Below are positions 14,047 to 24,011 of a stretch of 40,496 nt of DNA, piece by piece. This DNA is from a virus, in IMG/VR virus record IMGVR_UViG_3300037882_000161, positions 1 through 40,496 of that record. One strand, given 5' to 3'. The position numbers were made by a program, and so were the translations under genes. Below the pieces are notes generated by a model. The model ran no database searches, was not told the DNA's origin, and saw nothing but the letters and a program-made list of their open reading frames with translations. Each line of letters starts with the position of its first letter. Positions within the stretch are counted from its first letter, which is position 1.

Positions 14047-14373
14047 ATGAGTAACCAAGATTGGGAACTAAAGGTAGTAGAAAACGCTGGCGAGATTCCA
14101 GCAGAAGATTATCCAGAAGGTATTACTGTCCCCGTGAAGCCTTTACTTTTAGATATTAAGACACAACTGATGTTTGAACCAAAAAGATATGTATACACAG
14201 TGGGATGGAGAGCGTATGTTTGGCAGAAAAAAGAAGGCGGAATCTTCAAAGACCTCAACGCAAGCGAGTACAACGAACTCATTAAGCGAGGCACTGTGTC
14301 TTACACCAGAGAAACTGATGGAGATTCTGGAAGCAGCGCCCCTGTCACCAGCGGTGAAGCAAGCACTTCTTAA
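14047..14373 (+). CDS. Hypothetical replication-operon protein, 108 aa
   Basis: A 108 aa protein with no recognised domain. It begins MSNQDWELKVVENAGEIPAEDY and has a beta-like centre (KRYVYTVGWRAYVWQKKEGG) and a Ser/Gly/Thr-rich end. The SD AGGAGAAG lies 4 bases before ATG 14047. Its 3' third overlaps the next gene in another frame (from 14216), so about 158 bases may encode two proteins. Confidence 0.6.
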   Translation: MSNQDWELKVVENAGEIPAEDYPEGITVPVKPLLLDIKTQLMFEPKRYVYTVGWRAYVWQKKEGGIFKDLNASEYNELIKRGTVSYTRETDGDSGSSAPVTSGEASTS

Positions 14374-14641: not shown

Positions 14642-15362
14642 AGAGACACTGACTGTAGCGTGGTGCGATAACGGCATGGTTGACGGCAAGTTTGCCGAAG
14701 GCTTGGTCTATACCATCGTCACTGCCTACTCTAAGAACATATTGTTTAACAACGCTATGCGTGTGCAGGGTAACCAGATTGCACGCCAACGCCAAGCGTT
14801 GATTGACAAGTGGTATGACGAGGTTAAGACAGACTGGATTCTATGGGTTGACTCTGACATCGTGCTTACCCTTGATGTGATGAAGTTGATTTGGGATACA
14901 GCAGAGAAACACAGCAAGCCTATTGTTTCTGGCGTTTACTTTATCTCCAAGCAGAACGAAGGCTCACTCATGCAACCTATGCCCGTACTCTTTAATGAGA
15001 CTGGCGACAAGCACATGATGACCTACATCCACCCATTGCCACAGAACCAAGTCATCAAGATTGACAACGCTGGCATGGGATTGGTGTTGATGCATCGCTC
15101 CGTTGTTACACAACTGCGCGAGAAGTTTGGTGCTGATTGCTTCCTCTTTGCAGAGGGTGAAGATGCAGGTGAGAAGTTTATTGGTGAGGATGTGTCCTTC
15201 TTCCGCAAGGTTAAAGAGGTAGGCATCCCTGTCTATGCGCACACAGGTGCAACAGTCAAACACATGAAACGATTTTCGTTTGATTCCAACTACTACAACT
15301 TGTACTGGGCAGCAGTCCAGCACGCGGAGAAACAAAATGGCGACACAACAGCAAGCGAATAA
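14628..15362 (+). CDS. GT-A glycosyltransferase-like protein, 244 aa
   Basis: A glycosyltransferase family 2-like fold. The early beta-alpha region ends in ILWVDSDIV (residues 71-79), where D75-S-D77 is the DxD metal/nucleotide-sugar motif. SGVYFISK and a DNAGMGLVLMHRSVV block follow, with a late GEDVSFFRKVKEVGIPVYAHTGA. This ED..FF..... IP.Y....... H pattern is usual for phage GT-A proteins. It could glycosylate DNA bases, virion proteins or host wall; placement in the replication operon favours a DNA-linked target only weakly. ATG 14628 has GGAG 8 bases upstream. Confidence 0.7.
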   Translation: MHSSKETLTVAWCDNGMVDGKFAEGLVYTIVTAYSKNILFNNAMRVQGNQIARQRQALIDKWYDEVKTDWILWVDSDIVLTLDVMKLIWDTAEKHSKPIVSGVYFISKQNEGSLMQPMPVLFNETGDKHMMTYIHPLPQNQVIKIDNAGMGLVLMHRSVVTQLREKFGADCFLFAEGEDAGEKFIGEDVSFFRKVKEVGIPVYAHTGATVKHMKRFSFDSNYYNLYWAAVQHAEKQNGDTTASE

Positions 15363-15702
15363 GCGTAGAGGTGCAGCGTGGGAGATTGACTTAGCCGATG
15401 AGTTAGTCAATGAGGGCTACGAAGCACAACGATTGCCACGGGCAGGGCGCAATGACATAGGTGATGTCTTTCTTAAGACAGTAAATGATACCTATGTGAT
15501 TGAGGCTAAGGCACCACGGCGTGATGGTCGCATTGACCTGAGCGGGTGGTTGCGTGAGGCTGATGTAGAGGCAGAGAACTATCGCATCTCTAAGAACCTA
15601 GCCCTTGCACCTACCCCATTGGTAATCATTAAGGCATCGAACAAGGGAGTGATGGAGTCTTATGTAGTGCAAAGGCTTAGTGATGCTCTCGCCAAACTCT
15701 AA
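15337..15702 (+). CDS. Hjc-like Holliday junction resolvase / PD-(D/E)XK nuclease, 121 aa
   Basis: Resembles archaeal-type Hjc resolvases. KRRGAAWEIDLADELVNEGYEAQRLPRAGRNDIGDVFL is followed by YVIEAKAPRRDG, so the active-site set is E in WEIDLADEL, D in IGDV and E-x-K in VIEAKA. It would cleave four-way junctions or concatemeric branches before packaging. ATG 15337 is supported by GGAGAAAC and overlaps the previous gene by 26 bases. Confidence 0.75.
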   Translation: MATQQQANKRRGAAWEIDLADELVNEGYEAQRLPRAGRNDIGDVFLKTVNDTYVIEAKAPRRDGRIDLSGWLREADVEAENYRISKNLALAPTPLVIIKASNKGVMESYVVQRLSDALAKL

Positions 15703-16529: not shown

Positions 16530-16916
16530 GTGGTAAAGAACTCAAGTTTCGATTTAGACTTTGGGTACGGCAGAAAGGGTGAGAAGTTAGTAGAAGAACT
16601 CCTTACCGAAGGCAAGACAATAGAAGTAAAGAGAGATAGAAAATGGTGGGTTACTAACAACCTATACATTGAAGTTGAGTGCTGGTTTATGAAGTCCAAA
16701 TCATGGGAGAAGTCTGGCATCATGGTTACAGAGGCAGCATACTGGGCGTTTGTGTTAGAGAAGGGCGTACTCATGGTGCCTACGAGCCATGTGTTGTATG
16801 CAATCAAAGAGTTTGGTCGTGAGATTACTTGCGAGATTCCTCCCAATAAAAGCAAAGGTTATCTGATTACAGTTGATGACCTACTAATGGCAATGAGGAA
16901 ATTAAAAAATGAGTGA
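16530..16916 (+). CDS. Nuclease-like protein (PD-(D/E)XK pattern), 128 aa
   Basis: A 128 aa protein starting at GTG 16530. GRKGEKLVEELL, then GKTIEVKRDRKWWVTNNLYIEVECW gives an E-x-K followed by an E-x-E strand, resembling the core of small PD-(D/E)XK endonucleases; AAYWAFVLEKGVLMVPTSHV follows. A resolvase-like or VRR-type nuclease is suggested but not secure. It overlaps the sigma-factor start by 8 bases (ATGAGTGA), so the two genes are coupled. Confidence 0.55.
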   Translation: MVKNSSFDLDFGYGRKGEKLVEELLTEGKTIEVKRDRKWWVTNNLYIEVECWFMKSKSWEKSGIMVTEAAYWAFVLEKGVLMVPTSHVLYAIKEFGREITCEIPPNKSKGYLITVDDLLMAMRKLKNE

Positions 16917-17714: not shown

Positions 17715-18253
17715 TGATTATCGGGTTGAGTGGATACGCACAATCAGGTAAGGACAGCACGGCAGAATTGTTGTGTCTTAATTACGGATACACACGCCTT
17801 GCTTTCGCTGACCCTATGCGCCAAGCGCTAATGATTATCAACCCTAAGTTGGATAGCATCACGCGTGTCTCTGACTTGGTAGAGGACTATGGCTGGGATG
17901 TAGCCAAGAAGAATCCAGAAGTTCGCCGTCTATTACAAGTGCTAGGCACTGACTTTGGGCGCAAGATGTTAGGCGATGATGTGTGGATTAACATTGCATT
18001 ATCAGGTATTAAGTCAGAAGATAAGATTGTTATCTCTGATGTGCGCTACCCCAATGAGGCACAGGCAATCAAGAATCTTGGCGGTACTGTATGGCGTATA
18101 AACCGACACAACCACAGCGCTGTCAATGGTCACACATCAGAGCATGCGATGGATAACTACATGTTTAATCATGTTATCTATAACGATGGAACTCTTGATG
18201 ACTTAAGTGATGAAGTGTTCATGCTTGCTAAGGAATTAAATCTTAGTTCTTAA
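17714..18253 (+). CDS. Deoxynucleoside monophosphate kinase-like, 179 aa
   Basis: A P-loop kinase of the phage dNMP kinase type (T4 gp1-like). GLSGYAQSGKDSTAELL is the Walker A. LAFADPMRQAL is the substrate-side segment, RRLLQVLGTDFGRKMLGDDVWINIAL the family hallmark and IVISDVRYPNEAQAIKNLGG the Walker-B-like strand. It would phosphorylate dNMPs from host DNA breakdown to feed synthesis. It is the last gene of the rightward replication operon, ending just before a bidirectional terminator. Confidence 0.85.
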   Translation: MIIGLSGYAQSGKDSTAELLCLNYGYTRLAFADPMRQALMIINPKLDSITRVSDLVEDYGWDVAKKNPEVRRLLQVLGTDFGRKMLGDDVWINIALSGIKSEDKIVISDVRYPNEAQAIKNLGGTVWRINRHNHSAVNGHTSEHAMDNYMFNHVIYNDGTLDDLSDEVFMLAKELNLSS

Positions 18254-18311: not shown

Positions 18312-18665
18312 TCATGGATTGTGTTGCGGGTCTGCAATCGCCAATCCTAAAGTGTTACGCATCTTGTGTCGCATAGGTGGAGTGGTGCCACCCCATACTC
18401 CGTATCTTTCGTGGGCTAAGCCCCACTCCAAGCAAGCCTGCATTACTGGACAGTCGGCACACATGCGCTTGAACATGCGCTCCTCGTCACGACTAAAGAG
18501 TTCTTGCGGTGGATAAAAGACATCGGTATCTATGCCTCGACAGATAGCACCTTCCCATAGTTTTGCATTGTATCTTAAGACATAAGTAAGTAATCCCTTA
18601 CCATATCTATTCGTGCTTCCCTTTACTGCGATAACCCTGTGGTGCAGAGGCTTGAACAAACTCAC
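18312..18665 (-). CDS. WhiB-family iron-sulphur transcription regulator, 117 aa
   Basis: An actinobacterial WhiB-like protein. The cluster-binding set is C42 (GAICRGID), C69, C72 and C78 (MCADCPVMQACLEWGLAHE), followed by the G[VI]WGG turn (GVWGGTT, 89-93) and a basic C-terminal part (PPMRHKMR). WhiB proteins bind a 4Fe-4S cluster and contact the principal sigma factor; phage copies can down-regulate host whiB genes. It starts at GTG 18665, overlapping the upstream TGA. It is the last gene of a leftward unit. The N-terminal 35 residues are an extra basic extension. Its presence is the best host marker here. Confidence 0.9.
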   Translation of the reverse strand: MSLFKPLHHRVIAVKGSTNRYGKGLLTYVLRYNAKLWEGAICRGIDTDVFYPPQELFSRDEERMFKRMCADCPVMQACLEWGLAHERYGVWGGTTPPMRHKMRNTLGLAIADPQHNP

Positions 18666-18874
18666 ATTAACTCCTTCTCAATAGCCTGAATAGTAGGGCA
18701 AGGGTATGACATCATCCCATCTCCAAACCAACACGCACCACATAGATGTTCGTTTCCTTCTATGGGCTTATGCAATTCCACTACCGCAAGTAGTGCTGCG
18801 TAAGGAGTATCAAGGGTTCTACTTTTCCTGTAGTGATTGCTCTTTATGTTAGATAACAATTCGTTATAGTTCAT
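18662..18874 (-). CDS. Small Cys-containing conserved protein, 70 aa
   Basis: A 70 aa protein (MNYNELLSNIK, PYAALLAVVELHKP, then HLCGACWFGDGMMSYPCPTIQAIEKELM) with CxxC and a YPCPTIQAI end, a layout I recall from many actinophage hypothetical proteins that lie near whiB genes. It probably binds zinc. It starts in a TAA-GAC-ATG junction containing the TTAAGACA motif and overlaps the WhiB start by ATGTGAG. Confidence 0.7.
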   Translation of the reverse strand: MNYNELLSNIKSNHYRKSRTLDTPYAALLAVVELHKPIEGNEHLCGACWFGDGMMSYPCPTIQAIEKELM

Positions 18875-18877
18875 GTC

Positions 18878-19321
18878 TTAATACCAACCCTTGGCTAAGT
18901 GGTGGGCGTATGCCTTGCATACACCATTGCTTCCATACCTGTGCTTGATATAGCGCAAGCCCGCATCAACCTGCTTCATGCCGTCACGCGTGGGCTTCAC
19001 CTTGATATTCTTCCATGTGCTGTTAAGTAACTGCGGGATACCCATCGCACTAGACTTCTTGTTCTTTGCTTCTGGTCGCCAGTTTGACTCGCGCATCCAC
19101 AATTCATAGAGACATGGGTACTGCTCAAGCATGTTCGCTTCTGTTAATTTCTCTATGGCATAGCGTTGGTAATCGTTCTGATAGTAGGCAATCACCTTGC
19201 CATGTGGTGGCTTCACAATAAAGGTGGCTGGTTCCTTAAAGATAAAGAGCAAACCAAGTACAAGGGCTGTGACAATCCACAGTCGGGCATGCGGGTGTAT
19301 CTGTCTTAAGTCATTAAACAT
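18878..19321 (-). CDS. Membrane-anchored lytic transglycosylase-like protein, 147 aa
   Basis: An SLT-type muramidase fold. LYELWMRESNWRPEAKNKKSSAMGIPQLLNSTW holds the catalytic Glu (E78 in RESNW) and the GIPQLL motif, followed by GLRYIKHRYGSNGVCKAYAHH. Residues 13-28 (LWIVTALVLGLLFIF) form an N-terminal signal-anchor, so the enzyme should face the cell wall. Start ATG 19321 overlaps the upstream stop by 8 bases and has GAGAGAAAG upstream; an earlier ATG at 19351 lacks an SD. It lies in the leftward array, far from the endolysin, so it may act at another stage. Confidence 0.75.
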   Translation of the reverse strand: MFNDLRQIHPHARLWIVTALVLGLLFIFKEPATFIVKPPHGKVIAYYQNDYQRYAIEKLTEANMLEQYPCLYELWMRESNWRPEAKNKKSSAMGIPQLLNSTWKNIKVKPTRDGMKQVDAGLRYIKHRYGSNGVCKAYAHHLAKGWY

Positions 19322-19490
19322 TACTGTCCAACTTTCTCTCGGCTTCTGCATGTAGGAAAGTATCTATCGCCTTTTCTTCTATGTCCTTCTGCTTCTCGGT
19401 GCAAGGGTTGCACTTCTCGTACATGTAGTTCATAGTTCTAGGGTTCTCTACTGTGATACCGCAACCCAAGCACTCCATTAGTACGGTCAT
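19314..19490 (-). CDS. Small zinc-ribbon protein, 58 aa
   Basis: A 58 aa protein with MECLGCGITVE and YMYEKCNPCTEKQ (two CxxC pairs), followed by an acidic helix. It is probably a zinc ribbon of unknown target. Its ATG overlaps the upstream TGA (ATGA), and its TAA overlaps the transglycosylase start. Confidence 0.65.
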   Translation of the reverse strand: MTVLMECLGCGITVENPRTMNYMYEKCNPCTEKQKDIEEKAIDTFLHAEAERKLDSNV

Positions 19491-19750
19491 GGTGTCTCCT
19501 TCTTTGAGTGTTCTGTTAGTGAGTCAAGGAAATAACCTATACTCATGTCACCTGCTTCGTCAATAGCATCCGCCCATGCTGGTGCCTGAATCCATCTACC
19601 TTCTAGGTCAAGCCACTGAATATCAAAGCCATCGTGGTAATCCCAGTGCAAGATAACTCGTACCTCCTGCCCATCGCATGTGATGTTCATGTCCTTGTCG
19701 TATGCTGTTTCTGTCTTAAGTAATGCACCAACTTCTAGTTGCTTAGTCAT
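19487..19750 (-). CDS. Hypothetical protein, 87 aa
   Basis: An unrecognised 87 aa protein starting MTKQLEVGALLKTETAYDKD, beta-rich in the middle (ITCDGQEVRVILHWDYHDGFDIQWLDLEGRWIQAP) and ending LTEHSKKETP. ATG 19750 is chosen because it overlaps the upstream stop (ATGACTAA) and follows GGAG. A longer in-frame start is not supported. The LLKTE codons carry one TTAAGACA copy. Confidence 0.6.
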   Translation of the reverse strand: MTKQLEVGALLKTETAYDKDMNITCDGQEVRVILHWDYHDGFDIQWLDLEGRWIQAPAWADAIDEAGDMSIGYFLDSLTEHSKKETP

Positions 19751-19856
19751 CTCCGTACATCTCCTCAAGTGTGTCGTATGGTGAGTCTGGTTCCGTATCT
19801 TCCTCGTCAAGACCAAGGGCTATGTCGTCACCCTCTAGGTAGCGTGGCTCGCTCAT
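19743..19856 (-). CDS. Acidic mini-protein, 37 aa
   Basis: A strongly acidic 37 aa protein (MSEPRYLEGDDIALGLDEEDTEPDSPYDTLEEMYGDD). It has a good SD (AGGAGAAAAC) directly after a TTAAGACA copy, and overlaps both neighbours in ATGA/ATGACTAA style. The acidic, DNA-mimic-like composition is noted, but no function can be given. Confidence 0.6.
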   Translation of the reverse strand: MSEPRYLEGDDIALGLDEEDTEPDSPYDTLEEMYGDD

Positions 19857-20002
19857 TTGTTTTCTCCTGTCTTAAGTAACAATAAGTAATGTTCATAGAC
19901 TCCGTGCCAATAGTCGAAGTCCTCGTTGTTTTTAGTAGCGTTGCGTTGCTCACGCGCTCGCTTGATAAGTGACTGCACCTGCTTGCGTTCGGTATCGGTC
20001 AT
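19853..20002 (-). CDS. Hypothetical mini-protein, 49 aa
   Basis: A 49 aa, mainly helical protein (MTDTERKQVQSLIKRAREQR, FDYWHGVYEHYLLLLKTGENK). It begins at the TAA-GAC-ATG junction with a TTAAGACA copy and ends over a second copy (LLKTG), which also supplies the SD of the following gene. Confidence 0.6.
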   Translation of the reverse strand: MTDTERKQVQSLIKRAREQRNATKNNEDFDYWHGVYEHYLLLLKTGENK

Positions 20003-20005
20003 GTC

Positions 20006-20179
20006 TTAAGCCACATCTTTCTTATCGGCAACTGACTTCTGACATAGCACCACATGGCTGTGTTTGCATGTGCATTGGGGCGCACGATTCTTGGTTCGTC
20101 TTGTGACTATCTCGATAGAGGCATCGCATGAGGTGCATACATACCAGTAACTGACCCACTCTTTTGTCAATGTAGCCAT
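20006..20179 (-). CDS. Small zinc-ribbon protein, 57 aa
   Basis: A 57 aa protein: YWYVCTSCDASIEIVTRR then APQCTCKHSHVVLCQKS. The CxxC and CxC pairs suggest a zinc ribbon. ATG 20179 overlaps the upstream TAA (TAATG), and the stop lies in the TTAAGACATG junction. A competing 88-codon frame over the same bases is discarded because it lacks a start signal and Cys pairing. Confidence 0.65.
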   Translation of the reverse strand: MATLTKEWVSYWYVCTSCDASIEIVTRRTKNRAPQCTCKHSHVVLCQKSVADKKDVA

Positions 20180-20520
20180 TAGCCATACACCACCTCTCCA
20201 AGTACAGCCACCTGCAAGACTGCATCACCGCAGATAGCATCGTAATCATCGAAGTCGAACAAGTCCATAGACACCTGCTTGTTGGCAATAGGCAAGGCTT
20301 TTGCTAACTCCTCAATGCCGACAATCTTTTCTGTCTTAAGTAATGACACCTCATCTATAGCAACCAGTCTGACCTGACCGATGACATCCCATGATGTATC
20401 GCCAAGGTATTCAACCTCATGCCAGTGAGTTCCGAAAGACTCAAAGGCTGACCCGAATACTGAATCCCATAGTTCCTGCTTGTTAATCTCTACTGCGATT
20501 GTGATTGTTTCTTCTGACAT
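20179..20520 (-). CDS. Hypothetical protein, first gene of leftward unit A, 113 aa
   Basis: A 113 aa acidic protein (ITIAVEINKQELWDSVFGSAFESFGTHWHEVEYLG, then VRLVAIDE) with no domain I can name; similar short proteins occur in actinophage early regions (recollection). It has a strong SD AGGAGAAAG before ATG 20520. It is the first gene after CRP-like box A and its promoter, and heads the run down to WhiB. A TTAAGACA copy encodes LLKTEK. Confidence 0.65.
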   Translation of the reverse strand: MSEETITIAVEINKQELWDSVFGSAFESFGTHWHEVEYLGDTSWDVIGQVRLVAIDEVSLLKTEKIVGIEELAKALPIANKQVSMDLFDFDDYDAICGDAVLQVAVLGEVVYG

Positions 20521-20550
20521 TTCTTTCTCCTGTCTGTTGTTGGTGGTTGT

Positions 20551-20606
20551 ATTTAACTCTCGTCACCTATGCGGTGTCAAGGATTTGTCATGTGATGTTG
20601 GTCACA
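20551..20606 (-). promoter_or_regulatory. CRP-like box A plus promoter for the 20520-18312 unit
   Basis: Box TGTGATGTTGGTCACA (20591-20606) fits TGTGA-N6-TCACA. Reading leftward, after a 10-base gap come TTGACA (20580-20575), an 18-base spacer and TTAAAT (20556-20551), about 30 bases before ATG 20520. The box is centred near -54 of the predicted start, suitable for activation by a CRP-family protein. One TTAAGACA copy lies 3 bases further upstream (20610-20617). Confidence 0.65.
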
Positions 20607-20613
20607 CTCTGTC

Positions 20614-20775
20614 TTAATACCGAGGGTATCCATCTGGACAACCAACTTGGTCAACCAAACATGATTCGGGTATCTCCCAAACTCCCATCGCATTTGTGAT
20701 TACAATGAGGGCGGTAAGTATTAAGACATAAATAACTACGGCTCGCACTCGCTTGCCTCGTCTGTTTAGTTTCAT
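20614..20775 (-). CDS. Small single-TM protein, 53 aa
   Basis: A 53 aa protein (MKLNRRGKRVR, then VVIYVLILTALIVITNAM, then WEIPESCLVDQVGCPDGYPRY). The N-terminus is basic, with one membrane span and two Cys outside, so it is probably an exported or anchored peptide with a disulphide. ATG 20775 has AGGAGTACAAGAG upstream and overlaps the preceding mini-gene by ATGA. The stop TAA lies inside a TTAAGACA copy. Confidence 0.6.
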   Translation of the reverse strand: MKLNRRGKRVRAVVIYVLILTALIVITNAMGVWEIPESCLVDQVGCPDGYPRY

Positions 20776-20846
20776 CTCTTGTACTCCTTGGCATGTTGGC
20801 ATGTGGATAGGGGGATGAGGCAGTCTCCGCAAATTGTCTCGGTCAC
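20772..20846 (-). CDS. Putative Cys-rich mini-protein, 24 aa
   Basis: A 24-codon frame (MTETICGDCLIPLSTCQHAKEYKR, GTG start) overlapping the upstream stop by GTGA and the downstream start by ATGA. The Cys/Cys/Cys/His order could make a minimal zinc knuckle. The double-overlap geometry is the main support; it is very short and may be only a ribosome re-initiation relay. Confidence 0.4.
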   Translation of the reverse strand: MTETICGDCLIPLSTCQHAKEYKR

Positions 20847-21400
20847 GATGCCACCGCCATGACCGCTGGCATGCTTGCCTTGAGTGCCTTGGTTATCTTC
20901 TGCATCTCCTCAATACTGAACCCACCGAGGCGGTCATAAGATGAGCAGTGACTGTTGGTAATCTGACTTAATACAGAATAGAATTCTGCTCTGATTGGTG
21001 CCTCGTTTGATTCCTGATTGCGCTTGGCGATACGGCGTAGGCGTTCTGCTCTGATGTCCTTGGTTGGCTCCGCCTTGCGTGCCTCATGCATGCGCTTTAT
21101 TACTGACCAGTATTCATCGCGTATGTCCATGAGTCGGAAGTCTGTGCGGTAGCAGTTGAGTCTGCCGTCTTTGCCATGTGTTGGGCAGTCGAATCCGTAT
21201 GTCTTGCAGTTGGTCATGTAAACCACGCTTGCGCTTCGGTATCCTGTGGCTGGCTGTCCGTTTGCATCAAAGATTACATAGAAACGATTGCGACTGTGTT
21301 GGCTATGTGTCTTAAACAATGACTTTTGGTATGTCTGCATGCCGTTGTTCTGAGAGGTTGCATAGTAAGCAACTCCCGCCTTGAGTTCTGCTTTCTTCAT
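20843..21400 (-). CDS. Hypothetical protein, 185 aa
   Basis: A 185 aa protein with no assigned domain. MKKAELKAGVAYYATSQNN begins a beta-rich N-terminus (FYVIFDANGQPATGYRSASVVYMTNC), with Cys/His in FDCPTHGKDGRLNC and a basic helical C-terminal half (ERLRRIAKRNQESNEAPIRAEFY). The N-terminal part resembles the small site-specific-binding or WYL-like folds only superficially, so it is left unassigned. SD AGGAGAAAAAG precedes ATG 21400. It is the first gene after CRP-like box B. Confidence 0.6.
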   Translation of the reverse strand: MKKAELKAGVAYYATSQNNGMQTYQKSLFKTHSQHSRNRFYVIFDANGQPATGYRSASVVYMTNCKTYGFDCPTHGKDGRLNCYRTDFRLMDIRDEYWSVIKRMHEARKAEPTKDIRAERLRRIAKRNQESNEAPIRAEFYSVLSQITNSHCSSYDRLGGFSIEEMQKITKALKASMPAVMAVAS

Positions 21401-21450
21401 CTGCTTTTTCTCCTGTGCTTGTAGGTAACGGGATTGTTACCAGTGCCTCA

Positions 21451-21506
21451 ATGGTGGCATGACCACCGCGGTTTCTTCAACATTTGAGGCTGTGATTTTC
21501 ATCACA
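21451..21506 (-). promoter_or_regulatory. CRP-like box B plus promoter for the 21400-20614 unit
   Basis: The perfect palindrome TGTGATTTTCATCACA is at 21491-21506. After a 10-base gap come TTGAAG (21480-21475), an 18-base spacer and CACCAT (21456-21451). It aligns base for base in layout with promoter C, including the shared GCCTCAAA directly after the box and ATTGAGGCAC at the -10. GCCTCAA and TTGAGGC can also pair as a long hairpin around GGTGGTCATGCCACC. Confidence 0.6.
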
Positions 21507-21520
21507 TGTATCTCTCTGTC

Positions 21521-21700
21521 TTAATAAAGAATCTCCTGAATCTTTTTCTCATGTTGTTCTTGGATTGCGTTAGGTACTTTTTCTGTCTTAATAAATAACT
21601 CACCCTTGAACCAGTCAATGTGTGTCCCGTACTCCCCAAAGAAAGTTCGGGCTGTGTATTTTCCATAAACAAAATCTTGTTTTGTCTCTGTGATTTCCAT
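21521..21700 (-). CDS. Hypothetical mini-protein, 59 aa
   Basis: A 59 aa protein (MEITETKQDFVYGKYTARTFFGEYGTHIDWFKGELFIKTEK, then QEQHEKKIQEILY), probably a small beta fold plus helix; unrecognised. It starts at a TAA-GAC-ATG junction (21700), has a second TTAAGACA copy in FIKTEK, and ends on a third (TAT TAA GACAGA). This makes it the most motif-dense gene. Confidence 0.6.
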   Translation of the reverse strand: MEITETKQDFVYGKYTARTFFGEYGTHIDWFKGELFIKTEKVPNAIQEQHEKKIQEILY

Positions 21701-21703
21701 GTC

Positions 21704-21883
21704 TTAAGCCACAACCTTTCCACTTGCAATCTTTGCCTCTGCCTTGTTGCGCCACCCAAGGGCGATTCGATAAGCATCGGTTGAATCTTTGCAGTTGTTT
21801 AGTTCTGCTTCAAACTCTGTAACTTCCATACCTGCTCGGCTGAGTGCTGAATAAGCATCTGCCATCATGTATCGTGCATCCAT
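21704..21883 (-). CDS. Hypothetical mini-protein, 59 aa
   Basis: A 59 aa helical protein (MDARYMMADAYSALSRAGMEVTEFEAELNNCKDSTDAYRIALGWRNKAEAKIASGKVVA). It has an excellent SD (ACAGGAGAACGAAG before ATG 21883) directly following a TTAAGACA copy, and its stop lies in GGCTTAAGACATG. It is the first gene downstream of promoter C. Confidence 0.65.
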   Translation of the reverse strand: MDARYMMADAYSALSRAGMEVTEFEAELNNCKDSTDAYRIALGWRNKAEAKIASGKVVA

Positions 21884-21940
21884 CTTCGTTCTCCTGTCTT
21901 AATAAACAAGCCGAGTATTTCCCGCCTTGCTTGTGCCTCA

Positions 21941-21997
21941 ATCATGTCGTGAGCATGCGCCATCTGTCAATGGTTTGAGGCTGTGATGTTAGTCACA
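21941..21997 (-). promoter_or_regulatory. CRP-like box C plus promoter for the 21883-21521 unit
   Basis: Box TGTGATGTTAGTCACA (21982-21997) overlaps the stop of the upstream zinc-ribbon gene. After an 11-base gap come TTGACA (21970-21965), an 18-base spacer and CATGAT (21946-21941), leaving a leader of about 50 bases before ATG 21883. Promoters B and C share GCCTCAAA and ATTGAGGCAC, so they are probably duplicates. Confidence 0.65.
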
Positions 21998-22169
21998 TTT
22001 TTAGTTGTGTCTTAAGTTCCAACTTAATCCTTTCAATGTCGGCATCATCTAAGTTTGTGTCGTAAGACACACCACATTTAGGGCATGCAATCTCTGCCAT
22101 GAAACGCATGCCATAAGGGGCGAGTGTGATTCGTGTCACGCTGTTGCAATCTTCACATGTTGAGTTCAT
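21993..22169 (-). CDS. Small zinc-ribbon protein, 58 aa
   Basis: A 58 aa protein: MNSTCEDCNSVTRITLAPYGMRFMAEIACPKCGVSYDTNL and an amphipathic C-terminal helix ELKTQLKM. The two CxxC pairs about 27 residues apart make a classic zinc ribbon. It starts in GGCTTAAGACATG and carries another copy in ELKTQ. It is the last gene of unit D. Confidence 0.7.
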   Translation of the reverse strand: MNSTCEDCNSVTRITLAPYGMRFMAEIACPKCGVSYDTNLDDADIERIKLELKTQLKM

Positions 22170-22172
22170 GTC

Positions 22173-22328
22173 TTAAGCCACAACCTCTCCGATGGTGCGT
22201 AGTTCTTCGATGTATCCGCGATGGTATGAGAGCCACCTTTCTAGTTGTTCGGCGCTCTCAAAATCCACCACGCCCTTGTATCCGTCACCTTCGCGCTCGT
22301 CACGCTTGACCACATAGAATTTAAGCAT
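22173..22328 (-). CDS. Hypothetical mini-protein, 51 aa
   Basis: A 51 aa protein (MLKFYVVKRDEREGDGYKGVVDFESAEQLERWLSYHRGYIEELRTIGEVVA), alpha/beta and unrecognised. Its ATG overlaps the upstream TAA (TAATG) and its stop is in the TAA-GAC-ATG junction. The ending GEVVA resembles GKVVA of the gene at 21704; the repeated GTTGTGGCTTAAGACATG suggests the 3' ends share a duplicated segment. Confidence 0.6.
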   Translation of the reverse strand: MLKFYVVKRDEREGDGYKGVVDFESAEQLERWLSYHRGYIEELRTIGEVVA

Positions 22329-22696
22329 TACGCCACCTCGCTTTCTGTCTTAATACCTGACCAGTTGCCACCCTGTGAGTAAAGCCATCCTGTGCCTTCG
22401 GTGTATAGATAGAAATACTCCTCGCCCGCGTTGAAGTTCTCGAACCAATCGCCTTCGCCTGTAAATGTGCGGGCGCTGTCTGATTCGGTGCCGTAGACTC
22501 CCGCCTTGGTTTCTTCTAGTGTCTCCATAAGTGCAGAGAATCCGCCAAGGGCGATGAGTTGTTCTGCCTGCTCTTTGCTGTTGTAGTAGGTAACCAAGCC
22601 AGCGCCTACGCCTGCGGGGTATCCATCCCAATGGCAGTAAATCGCTTTGATTGTGCCGTCTGATGTCTTAAGTCCGATTGTGCTTCTTGTTGCCAT
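22328..22696 (-). CDS. Conserved phage protein of MATRS/IYCHWDGYP type, 122 aa
   Basis: A 122 aa protein beginning MATRSTIGLKTSDGTIKAIYCHWDGYPAGVGAGLVTYYN, with DWFENFNAGEEYFYLYTEGTGWLYSQ. This N-terminal pattern is widespread in phages and some bacteria as an uncharacterised family (recollection). ATG 22696 has AGGAGACAG upstream; longer in-frame starts are not supported. It contains two TTAAGACA copies (GLKTS near the start, GIKTE near the end). It heads unit D. Confidence 0.75.
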   Translation of the reverse strand: MATRSTIGLKTSDGTIKAIYCHWDGYPAGVGAGLVTYYNSKEQAEQLIALGGFSALMETLEETKAGVYGTESDSARTFTGEGDWFENFNAGEEYFYLYTEGTGWLYSQGGNWSGIKTESEVA

Positions 22697-22758
22697 CTGT
22701 TCTGTCTCCTGTCTTAATACACAACCTGCGCGGTGCCTGTTGTGGTCTTGCTTGGTGC

Positions 22759-22814
22759 AATCTTCCCACCGTTTCCGATAGGAACCTAGCATTTCCGATG
22801 TGATGTTCATCACA
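22759..22814 (-). promoter_or_regulatory. CRP-like box D upstream of the 22696-21993 unit
   Basis: The perfect palindrome TGTGATGTTCATCACA is at 22799-22814, 103 bases before ATG 22696. At the spacing used by A-C the hexamers are poor (TAGGTT at 22788-22783, AAGATT at 22764-22759), so the promoter may be activator-dependent or lie elsewhere. TTTCCGAT is repeated at 22772 and 22792, exactly 20 bases apart. Confidence 0.5.
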
Positions 22815-22821
22815 CCTCACC

Positions 22822-22838
22822 CTCAACTTTAGGTTGAG
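22822..22838. promoter_or_regulatory. Short hairpin next to box D
   Basis: CTCAAC-tttag-GTTGAG is a 6-bp inverted repeat immediately beside CRP-like box D, between it and the SprT-gene terminator. It could be part of the terminator or an extra protein site. Confidence 0.4.
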
Positions 22839-22845
22839 AGTTAGC

Positions 22846-22892
22846 GCCCCCGCTAGGTCTTGAATCTGCGCCGACTTAATCGGTGCGGGGGC
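22846..22892 (-). terminator. Hairpin downstream of the SprT-like gene
   Basis: GCCCCCGC (22846-22853) pairs with GCGGGGGC (22885-22892). Inside the loop is CCGACTTAATCGG (22871-22883), a second small stem. It follows the SprT-like stop (22906) in the leftward direction. There is no strong U-tract, so it may be a weak terminator or an RNA-processing hairpin. Confidence 0.55.
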
Positions 22893-22905
22893 TTTCTGTC
22901 TTAAG

Positions 22906-23547
22906 TCATGCCTCCTTGTAGATTTCTTCGCATTGGTTGCATGTCACGCCGATTTCTAAGACGGTGCGAGATAGGCGGATGGTGTTCTCACAATCGCATT
23001 GTGCCTTAATCAAGTTGGTGTTTCTGCCTTTCTTCTTGGCAGATTCGCCACCAAGTGCCACCAAATCAAATGCGCCCGCAAGAATCTTGAGCGCCTTGCT
23101 CCATCGCTTGGCACCAAATTCTGTAAGTTCTGTTGAGGCGTGTCCCTTGCCCTTGATTTCTAGTGTCTTAAGACCGAGCGCCTCGGCTTGAGTCTTGAAA
23201 TGCTTGTTGTGATACTGGTTGCTTGAGCAATCTTCCACGCCGTTTTGGTGGTTGATTGAGTGCGCCACCTCATGCAAGAGGGTTGAAAGTAATTCCTCGG
23301 GGGTTGTGAAATGCTCAAGGTTGAAAGCAATCTCCGAGAAAGATTCCTCGCCATTTTGCCAAGGTGTGAAAGGTGTGAAATGTCCCTTGCGACCCTTGAG
23401 GTCGCGGGTCACCAAGAGAGTTGCGCGAGGTGCGCCTGTTTCTGCCTTGATGAGTTCATGAGCAGATTCAAGCGCCTTGGTGATTGTTGAAAGCGCCTCC
23501 GCCTTGGTTGATGCCTTGCCTGCCTTGGTTGCGGTTGCTTGTGTCAT
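22906..23547 (-). CDS. SprT-like zinc metalloprotein, 213 aa
   Basis: A SprT/Spartan-type predicted metallopeptidase. LLSTLLHEVAHSINHQNG holds HEVAH (residues 92-96). A third ligand is likely H116 in NKHFKTQAEALGL. The C-terminus is a zinc ribbon (C184-x-C186, C203-xx-C206). It may cleave DNA-bound proteins or host regulators; this is inference. SD AGGAGAAAC precedes ATG 23547. It is the first and only gene of the leftmost-starting unit, under CRP-like box E. One TTAAGACA copy encodes LKTLE, another follows the stop. Confidence 0.8.
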   Translation of the reverse strand: MTQATATKAGKASTKAEALSTITKALESAHELIKAETGAPRATLLVTRDLKGRKGHFTPFTPWQNGEESFSEIAFNLEHFTTPEELLSTLLHEVAHSINHQNGVEDCSSNQYHNKHFKTQAEALGLKTLEIKGKGHASTELTEFGAKRWSKALKILAGAFDLVALGGESAKKKGRNTNLIKAQCDCENTIRLSRTVLEIGVTCNQCEEIYKEA

Positions 23548-23585
23548 GTTCTGTTTCTCCTGTTCTGTTGTAAGTCCGATTGACT

Positions 23586-23604
23586 CACTAGGAGATTTCT
23601 AGTG
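23586..23604. promoter_or_regulatory. Operator-like inverted repeat over the SprT promoter -10
   Basis: CACTAG-gagattt-CTAGTG is a perfect 6-bp inverted repeat with a 7-base centre. It covers the predicted -10 (TAGAAA, 23601-23596) of the leftward SprT promoter and is therefore well placed for a repressor. Confidence 0.45.
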
Positions 23605-23671
23605 CCTCGGGTTAGGCGCGGTCAAATCTTGGTGAGCGTGTGTCGAAAAAAACTTTGTGAGATGCATCACA
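23596..23671 (-). promoter_or_regulatory. CRP-like box E plus promoter for the SprT-like gene
   Basis: Box TGTGAGATGCATCACA is at 23656-23671. TTGACC (23625-23620), an 18-base spacer and TAGAAA (23601-23596) follow, about 50 bases before ATG 23547. The box-to-(-35) gap is 30 bases, about two helical turns longer than the 10-11 bases at A-C, so the box keeps roughly the same face of the DNA. Confidence 0.55.
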
Positions 23672-24011
23672 TCCCGCGTGTGAGCGTGTGTCTCAAATAG
23701 TGAGACGGCAAGTGAGCGCCCCCGCATGCATGCCCCCCCGCCCCCCCGCGCTCCTTGTAGGGGCAAGAGTTAAACGCCTTTCAAGTGATAGCCCGCTCAC
23801 ATCGCTAGCCCTGCCCTCTTTCTTGTGTCGGGCTTGTGCTTTCTTGTAAGTAGATGAGTGATTGCAGGGTCATGTGTGACCCCAGGGTTGTTAAATGCGG
23901 TGTATATGTGTATATGTGTATGTACCCACATAACTTTGATAGTCCTCGTTATGGGGCGCTGACCAGCACTTATGTCTTAAGATAAAAGATTTTAAAAATA
24001 CTTGCCAAAAA

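Follow-up and report, generated by a model that had tools for sequence, protein, structure and literature searches.

The leftward array and its repeated word

The stretch analysed here (the window, 40,496 bases, IMG/VR virus record IMGVR_UViG_3300037882_000161) encodes a terminase, a portal protein, an exonuclease, a DnaB-like helicase, a primase, a sigma-like protein, a deoxynucleoside monophosphate (dNMP) kinase and a WhiB-like protein. It also contains a leftward gene array throughout which the octamer TTAAGACA is repeated (18575-23980). The first gene of this array, sprA, encodes an SprT-like protein. Arrays of related phages bear other words, and three classes are named here by word: A for TTAAGACA, B for GTTTAAAC and C for GTTTAGAC. 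The features are listed below, where "exact" stands for an exact copy of TTAAGACA and SD for Shine-Dalgarno sequence.

23973-23980, minus: site in the upstream leader of the first array gene, next to an AT-rich, promoter-like stretch; of all copies the closest to the terminase side, exact
22906-23547, minus: sprA, the SprT-like gene that opens the leftward array; its product carries HEVAH and, at the C terminus, a zinc ribbon (Pfam SprT-like; phrog_6361)
23164-23171, minus: site inside sprA (GLKT), exact
22897-22904, minus: site immediately past the sprA stop codon, exact
22710-22717, minus: leader site directly before the SD of gene 22328-22696, exact
22664-22671, minus: intragenic site (GLKT), exact
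22346-22353, minus: site close to a gene 3' end (GIKT), exact
22169-22176, minus: stop-start junction site (TAA GAC ATG), exact
22008-22015, minus: site in gene 21993-22169, close to its 3' end and upstream of a CRP-like site, exact
21895-21902, minus: leader site before an SD, exact
21700-21707, minus: stop-start junction site, exact
21584-21591, minus: site in gene 21521-21700 (FIKT), exact
21517-21524, minus: stop-codon site upstream of a CRP-like site, exact
21308-21315, minus: site in gene 20843-21400 (FKT), exact
20721-20728, plus: opposite-strand array site, exact
20610-20617, minus: stop-codon site adjoining a CRP-like site, exact
20332-20339, minus: site in gene 20179-20520 (LKT), exact
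20002-20009, minus: stop-start junction site, exact
19868-19875, minus: site near the end of gene 19853-20002, directly before the SD of the next gene, exact
19712-19719, minus: intragenic site (LKT), exact
19302-19309, minus: site at the transglycosylase gene start (LRQ), position shared with the class B word GTTTAAAC and the class C word GTTTAGAC, exact
18878-19321, minus: transglycosylase-like gene, conserved in all classes
18874-18881, minus: stop-start junction site, exact
18575-18582, plus: opposite-strand site in whiB (YVLRY), position shared with GTTTAAAC in class B (FKLRW), exact
18312-18665, minus: WhiB-like gene, last of the array (Pfam Whib, E=1.6e-16)
17774-17781, minus: site in the dNMP kinase gene (LCLN), position shared across classes A, B and C, exact
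15473-15480, plus: site in a RusA-like gene, rightward region, exact
14824-14831, plus: site in a glycosyltransferase gene, rightward region, exact
14156-14163, plus: site in the rightward replication region, co-oriented with the transcription of that region, exact

The window contains 33 exact copies of TTAAGACA; dinucleotide shuffles give an expectation of 1.76, with at most 6 in any of 100. The array holds 22 of them, 20 on the minus strand and 2 on the plus strand, and the other 11 lie elsewhere in the window. A preliminary description of this DNA had counted exactly these twenty minus-strand copies and regarded the repeat as having a single orientation; the bias is strong (20:2), but the two plus-strand copies (18575-18582 and 20721-20728) had been missed, as had the 11 outside the array. 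The three contexts that it distinguished (Leu-Lys-Thr codons, TAA stops and leaders before an SD) were all identified, and the repeat also survives the control it had named as the refuting test, a shuffle matched for codon usage. With synonymous codons exchanged in genes and bases in gaps (n=5000, amino acids and codon counts kept), the array contained on average 1.55 co-oriented and 0.03 opposed copies, with maxima of 7 and 2, against the 20 and 2 observed.

The relatives compared with the window are contigs related by common descent, many of them fragments, with mechanical gene calls. In 44 arrays, including that of the window, 614 co-oriented and 131 opposed copies of TTAAGACA were counted, where 5.9 were expected for each. 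Homologous comparisons with the window showed the site unaltered in 63% of cases and control 8-mers in 22%, and TTAAGACA ranked first or close to first among the 8-mers of almost all relatives retrieved with the first-gene protein. In every class the sites are dense in the early array and sparse in the virion genes. Their spacing presents no helical phasing. Class A copies often abut an SD, and about half of the co-oriented class A sites (96 of 187) fall inside predicted genes.

The full class A motif is an imperfect palindrome, TGWCTTAAGACA, of about 18 bp with flanks, where TTAAGACA is the better-conserved part. The information in the flanks is two-fold symmetric (TYnTGWC-TTAA-GACAnRA) out to the 18-bp palindrome, and TTAAGTCA is enriched about 19-fold.

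Site words in related phages and the first array gene

The motif is present in many relatives, the check proposed in the preliminary description, but close ones (terminase 82-84%) without TTAAGACA bear other words, either GTTTAAAC at about 30-57 sites per 40 kb or GTTTAGAC. With flanks these sites read YGTTTAAACR in class B and YGTTTAGACR in class C. A GTYT half-site appears to be common to the three words, with a spacer of 2 bp in class A and none in classes B and C. The arrays of classes B and C also encode an amidoligase and a class-II glutamine amidotransferase, absent from class A (G029:34523-36702, minus strand, and equivalents).

Site positions are shared across classes in 6 of 53 clusters (1.87 at random, p = 0.01), and among recurrent clusters in 4 of 27 (0.89 at random, p = 0.0096). 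Three positions share a site in this way: the dNMP kinase, the transglycosylase start and whiB. The LCLN peptide of the dNMP kinase has the codons TGT-CTT-AAT in class A (9 of 9 genomes), TGT-TTA-AAC in class B (four genomes) and TGT-CTA-AAC in class C, and at the other two positions the words are class-specific with altered amino acids. The comparison, made on sequences, shows that some sites were rewritten in place, probably when the specificity changed.

A second clade, at about 45% to the window in the terminase, includes class A members as well as lineages with several palindromes per array. These are 14-19 bp long, lie at similar array positions and were identified as TGTATTAA-W-TTAATACA, TGTATGAA-W-TTCATACA, TTCGGYTARCCGAA, CGTCATAT-W-ATATGACG, TGTCATAT-W-ATATGACA, TGCCGTAT-W-ATACGGCA and TGCTGTAT-W-ATACAGCA. 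Within a single phage family the distinct words number at least nine. A tRNA-like T-arm sequence (such as GGTTCGATTCCTATGGTGGGCAC) stands directly before one conserved palindrome at L428:6370-6425, L425:6245-6300 and 1790-1845 of the L398 array, loci at which ARAGORN called no tRNA.

The word of an array is predicted by its first gene. The SprT-like protein (Pfam PF10263, 27.6 bits over a cut-off of 25.6) carries HEVAH and C-terminal cysteines. In deduplicated arrays, an active SprT-like first gene was accompanied by TTAAGACA in 23 of 23 cases, a degenerate one by GTTTARAC in 26 of 26 (GTTTAAAC in 23 and GTTTAGAC in 3), and a first gene of the P202 family (about 200 aa) by long palindromes in 10 of 10. 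None of the three gene types was detected in 25 arrays, of which 21 were motif-free, one had a weak TTAAGACA set (L372) and three had GTTTAAAC. The last three encode a protein of about 50 aa that is only a zinc ribbon. In the class B lineages L103, L105 and L136 such free-standing proteins replace the SprT-like protein and lie some 700-900 bases into the array; G026 likewise keeps little beyond the ribbon. The presence of GTTTAAAC in ribbon-only arrays points to the zinc ribbon as the part of the first-gene protein that matters. The ribbons of classes B and C differ at one ligand-like residue (D/L/T against C). All 17 contigs retrieved by the class B protein alone carry GTTTAAAC, some of them being already among the earlier contigs. 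Class B and C sites often lie <=120 bp from the start of the first gene, and several overlap its promoter-like elements.

P202 is a new, fast-diverging and mostly helical family tied to long palindromic operators, with members at L373:7181-7786, L375:8700-9326 and L398:8700-9299 (all minus strand) and no Pfam or PHROG match. It lacks conserved stretches and was searched by single-protein scans. The contigs so retrieved present palindromes wherever the sequence suffices, L424 and L426 ending too soon downstream of the gene to judge. In most contigs of the TGTATTAA group the first palindrome precedes the P202 start by 31-39 bp (by 74 in one), and in some other contigs by about 115-120 bp. The palindromes of P202 phages lie between promoter-like elements and gene starts, and operator similarity drops along with protein similarity.

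A candidate early-region regulator and the alternatives

It had been stated that no recognisable repressor gene is present, which is fair by annotation, but when relatives are compared the first array gene (22906-23547) emerges as the candidate. From the sites, their symmetry, the classes, the rewriting in place and the linkage to the first gene, all read from sequence, we infer binding, dimerisation and repression. The preferred reading, with a probability of about 0.58, is that the product of the first array gene binds DNA and regulates the early region through dispersed, stoperator-like operators. The most likely binder would be the SprT-like zinc-ribbon protein, as a dimer via its ribbon, and TGTCTTAAGACA DNA is the putative target of the protein or of its ribbon. 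The regulator would occupy sites close to its own promoter and others ahead of, between and within early genes, where occlusion and roadblock would lower early transcription of the array and of the regulator's own gene. Its mode would be like that of a stoperator repressor, but within the lytic cycle. In related phages, GTTTAAAC or GTTTAGAC would be paired with the degenerate SprT-like protein or the bare ribbon, and the palindromes of 14-19 bp with P202.

A broader proposal is made tentatively, its chances being put somewhat below even: virulent actinophages would carry a regulator-operator system that can be swapped and has at least nine specificities. In it a ribbon, free-standing or part of an SprT-like protein, or P202 would read dispersed palindromes, and a change of specificity would lead to synonymous rewriting in place. 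The resulting groups may function as immunity groups do, against relatives that co-infect. If true, small phage proteins and dispersed operators in a widespread group of freshwater bacterial viruses would be linked by a code defined in sequence. It would also mean that a regulatory network was re-specified at orthologous positions and that the zinc ribbon is a minimal sequence-specific reader.

Several points weigh against the first array gene as the regulator. The class C sample comprises three related contigs, some class A leaders lack a close site at the first gene, and L372, perhaps a member that is decaying or encoded differently, has five TTAAGACA with no sprA detected. SprT homologues at a greater distance (35-40%) occur in phages without such a motif. 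The first gene and the array may travel as one block, so that linkage is no proof of recognition. SprT-like proteins are not known as sequence-specific repressors, and the AlphaFold model of this one gives a weak zincin match. The preferred reading gives no role to the intact protease site of class A, which might switch the regulator. Neither the SprT-like nor the P202 model had a confident match in structure searches. The L372 array is also enriched in GTCTTAAG.

An array-encoded protein, the same or another, could instead bind the sites to organise, segregate, protect or recombine phage DNA, which is considered unlikely. The many intragenic sites without helical phasing would fit such a role, and SprT-like proteins otherwise act on DNA-protein crosslinks. 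The sites, however, track early transcription units and are sparse in virion genes, and the placement of the P202-phage palindromes and of several class B and C sites relative to promoter-like elements also speaks against it.

Binding by a host transcription factor, as by CtrA in some alphaproteobacterial phages, would make the classes a reflection of the specificity of the hosts' factors. Phages with many host-regulator sites are known (PMC9437464), and five CRP-like sites in the window indicate that host regulators probably act here. This alternative is nevertheless quite unlikely, the motif type tracking the phage gene almost without exception, with at least nine words inside one phage family, and the CtrA-phage sites being in promoters against about half intragenic here. 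With the terminase as query, only one contaminant-like contig of a metagenome-assembled genome was matched.

Another phage protein, WhiB-like or sigma-70-like, is an improbable binder. Both are conserved in all classes and WhiB differs by class, but members of the clade that lack the motif have the WhiB family too, and the motif has no -10-like partner downstream. The sigma-like protein was rejected as it shows no split by class, like DnaB and terminase. A promoter element was rejected, the flank profile having no -10 partner.

The preliminary description had left the choice between a DNA and an RNA signal; the DNA part is favoured and the RNA part is not retained. A signal for processing, mRNA stability or translation, read on the transcript, is highly improbable, even with copies co-oriented with local transcription in leftward and rightward regions (41:18 and 22:5 in the latter) and class A copies often beside an SD. 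In genomes not using TTAAGACA, codon usage predicts 4.7 coding-strand copies for each complement, mostly as Leu-Lys-Thr. The inside-gene count of 96 co-oriented to 22 opposed (4.4:1) matches this expectation, and no inherent site direction appears to be needed. The remaining bias stems from TAA stops and from overlap with the GACAGGAG Shine-Dalgarno context, and in the rightward regions coding constraint would likewise yield a bias along transcription. The one-orientation bias is probably accounted for by coding compatibility and not by the signal itself; an apparent strand-specific signal can be explained by coding compatibility alone. In addition, opposite-strand copies are conserved in whiB and the dNMP kinase, and the class B and C sites are not start-associated. 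An RNA hairpin or RNA-only signal was rejected, given that the left arm varies without G-U wobble preference and that GTTTAAAC, a perfect palindrome, is unable to form a loop. With the extended motif palindromic, sister lineages using the perfect palindrome GTTTAAAC and orientation following codon compatibility, the evidence favours a double-stranded DNA site. Chance or codon bias as the source of the repeat is excluded by the controls: Leu-Lys-Thr codons ease the encoding of forward copies, but codon-preserving shuffles never come near the observed count, the sites are conserved at the nucleotide level and the synonymous codons are specific to class.

Known systems, probable hosts and neighbouring features

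The stoperators of L5 and other Cluster A phages, some 24 short, dispersed sites to which a phage regulator binds, have a 13-bp asymmetric consensus (GGTGGMTGTCAAG), are mostly intergenic and occur in temperate phages (PMC5712189). Shared with them are the dispersed early-region sites (33 exact copies, where about 20 or more are usual for stoperators) and a consensus varying among relatives. Stoperators are biased in orientation relative to transcription; the bias seen here is strong too, but inside genes it equals what codon compatibility predicts. In contrast, the sites of the window family are palindromic and not predominantly intergenic (96 of the 187 co-oriented class A sites being intragenic), the candidate protein is another one and no integrase was detected. 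PF00589 (tyrosine integrase) and PF01381 (HTH_3) had no match in 26 records including the window, a search that did not cover serine integrases. GGTGGMTGTCAAG has one match with 2 mismatches in the window, below the 2.15 expected by chance. The analogy to stoperators drawn earlier holds for behaviour (dispersed, early, with a lineage-specific consensus) and fails for membership, on the consensus, the intragenic half and the lack of a detected integrase.

The start-associated sequences (SAS) of Cluster K, GGGATAGGAGCCC, include the SD and are tied to starts, and extended ones (ESAS) have 17-bp inverted repeats (PMC3203893). Short repeats before gene starts in one orientation are common to both systems, but the sites of classes B and C show no link to starts, and those of class A are in many cases intragenic. 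GGGATAGGAGCCC has no match in the window with up to 2 mismatches. The suggested likeness to SAS finds no support, and the statement that the motif differs from L5 stoperators and SAS alike agrees with these searches. CtrA sites (PMC9437464) are similarly dense in part of a phage genome and independent of lysogeny; there a host protein binds at promoters, whereas here the word tracks a phage gene and a promoter focus is lacking, about half of the sites being intragenic.

The Planktophila phages E7 and F5 (OX376640, OX376641) are cultivated, lytic and infect Candidatus (Ca.) Nanopelagicales (PMC10202952). They share with the window the terminase (44%), the portal protein (47-50%) and the WhiB and sigma genes, but have no motif, and none of the three first-gene types was detected in them. 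As these are its cultivated relatives, the hosts of the window virus group are probably Ca. Nanopelagicales. The Streptomyces relatives HaugeAnator and Stella were set aside, their top repeats being mostly terminal repeats and not array sites.

Beside the sigma-like gene lies a 128-aa protein (16530-16916; phrog_13596), conserved across clades at 63-67% against 45% for the terminase. Five CRP-like palindromes (TGTGAN6TCACA, 0.09 expected) were identified at 20591-20606, 21491-21506, 21982-21997, 22799-22814 and 23656-23671, several of them directly upstream of TTGACA-like elements. They are common among class A relatives, with nearly none in class B.

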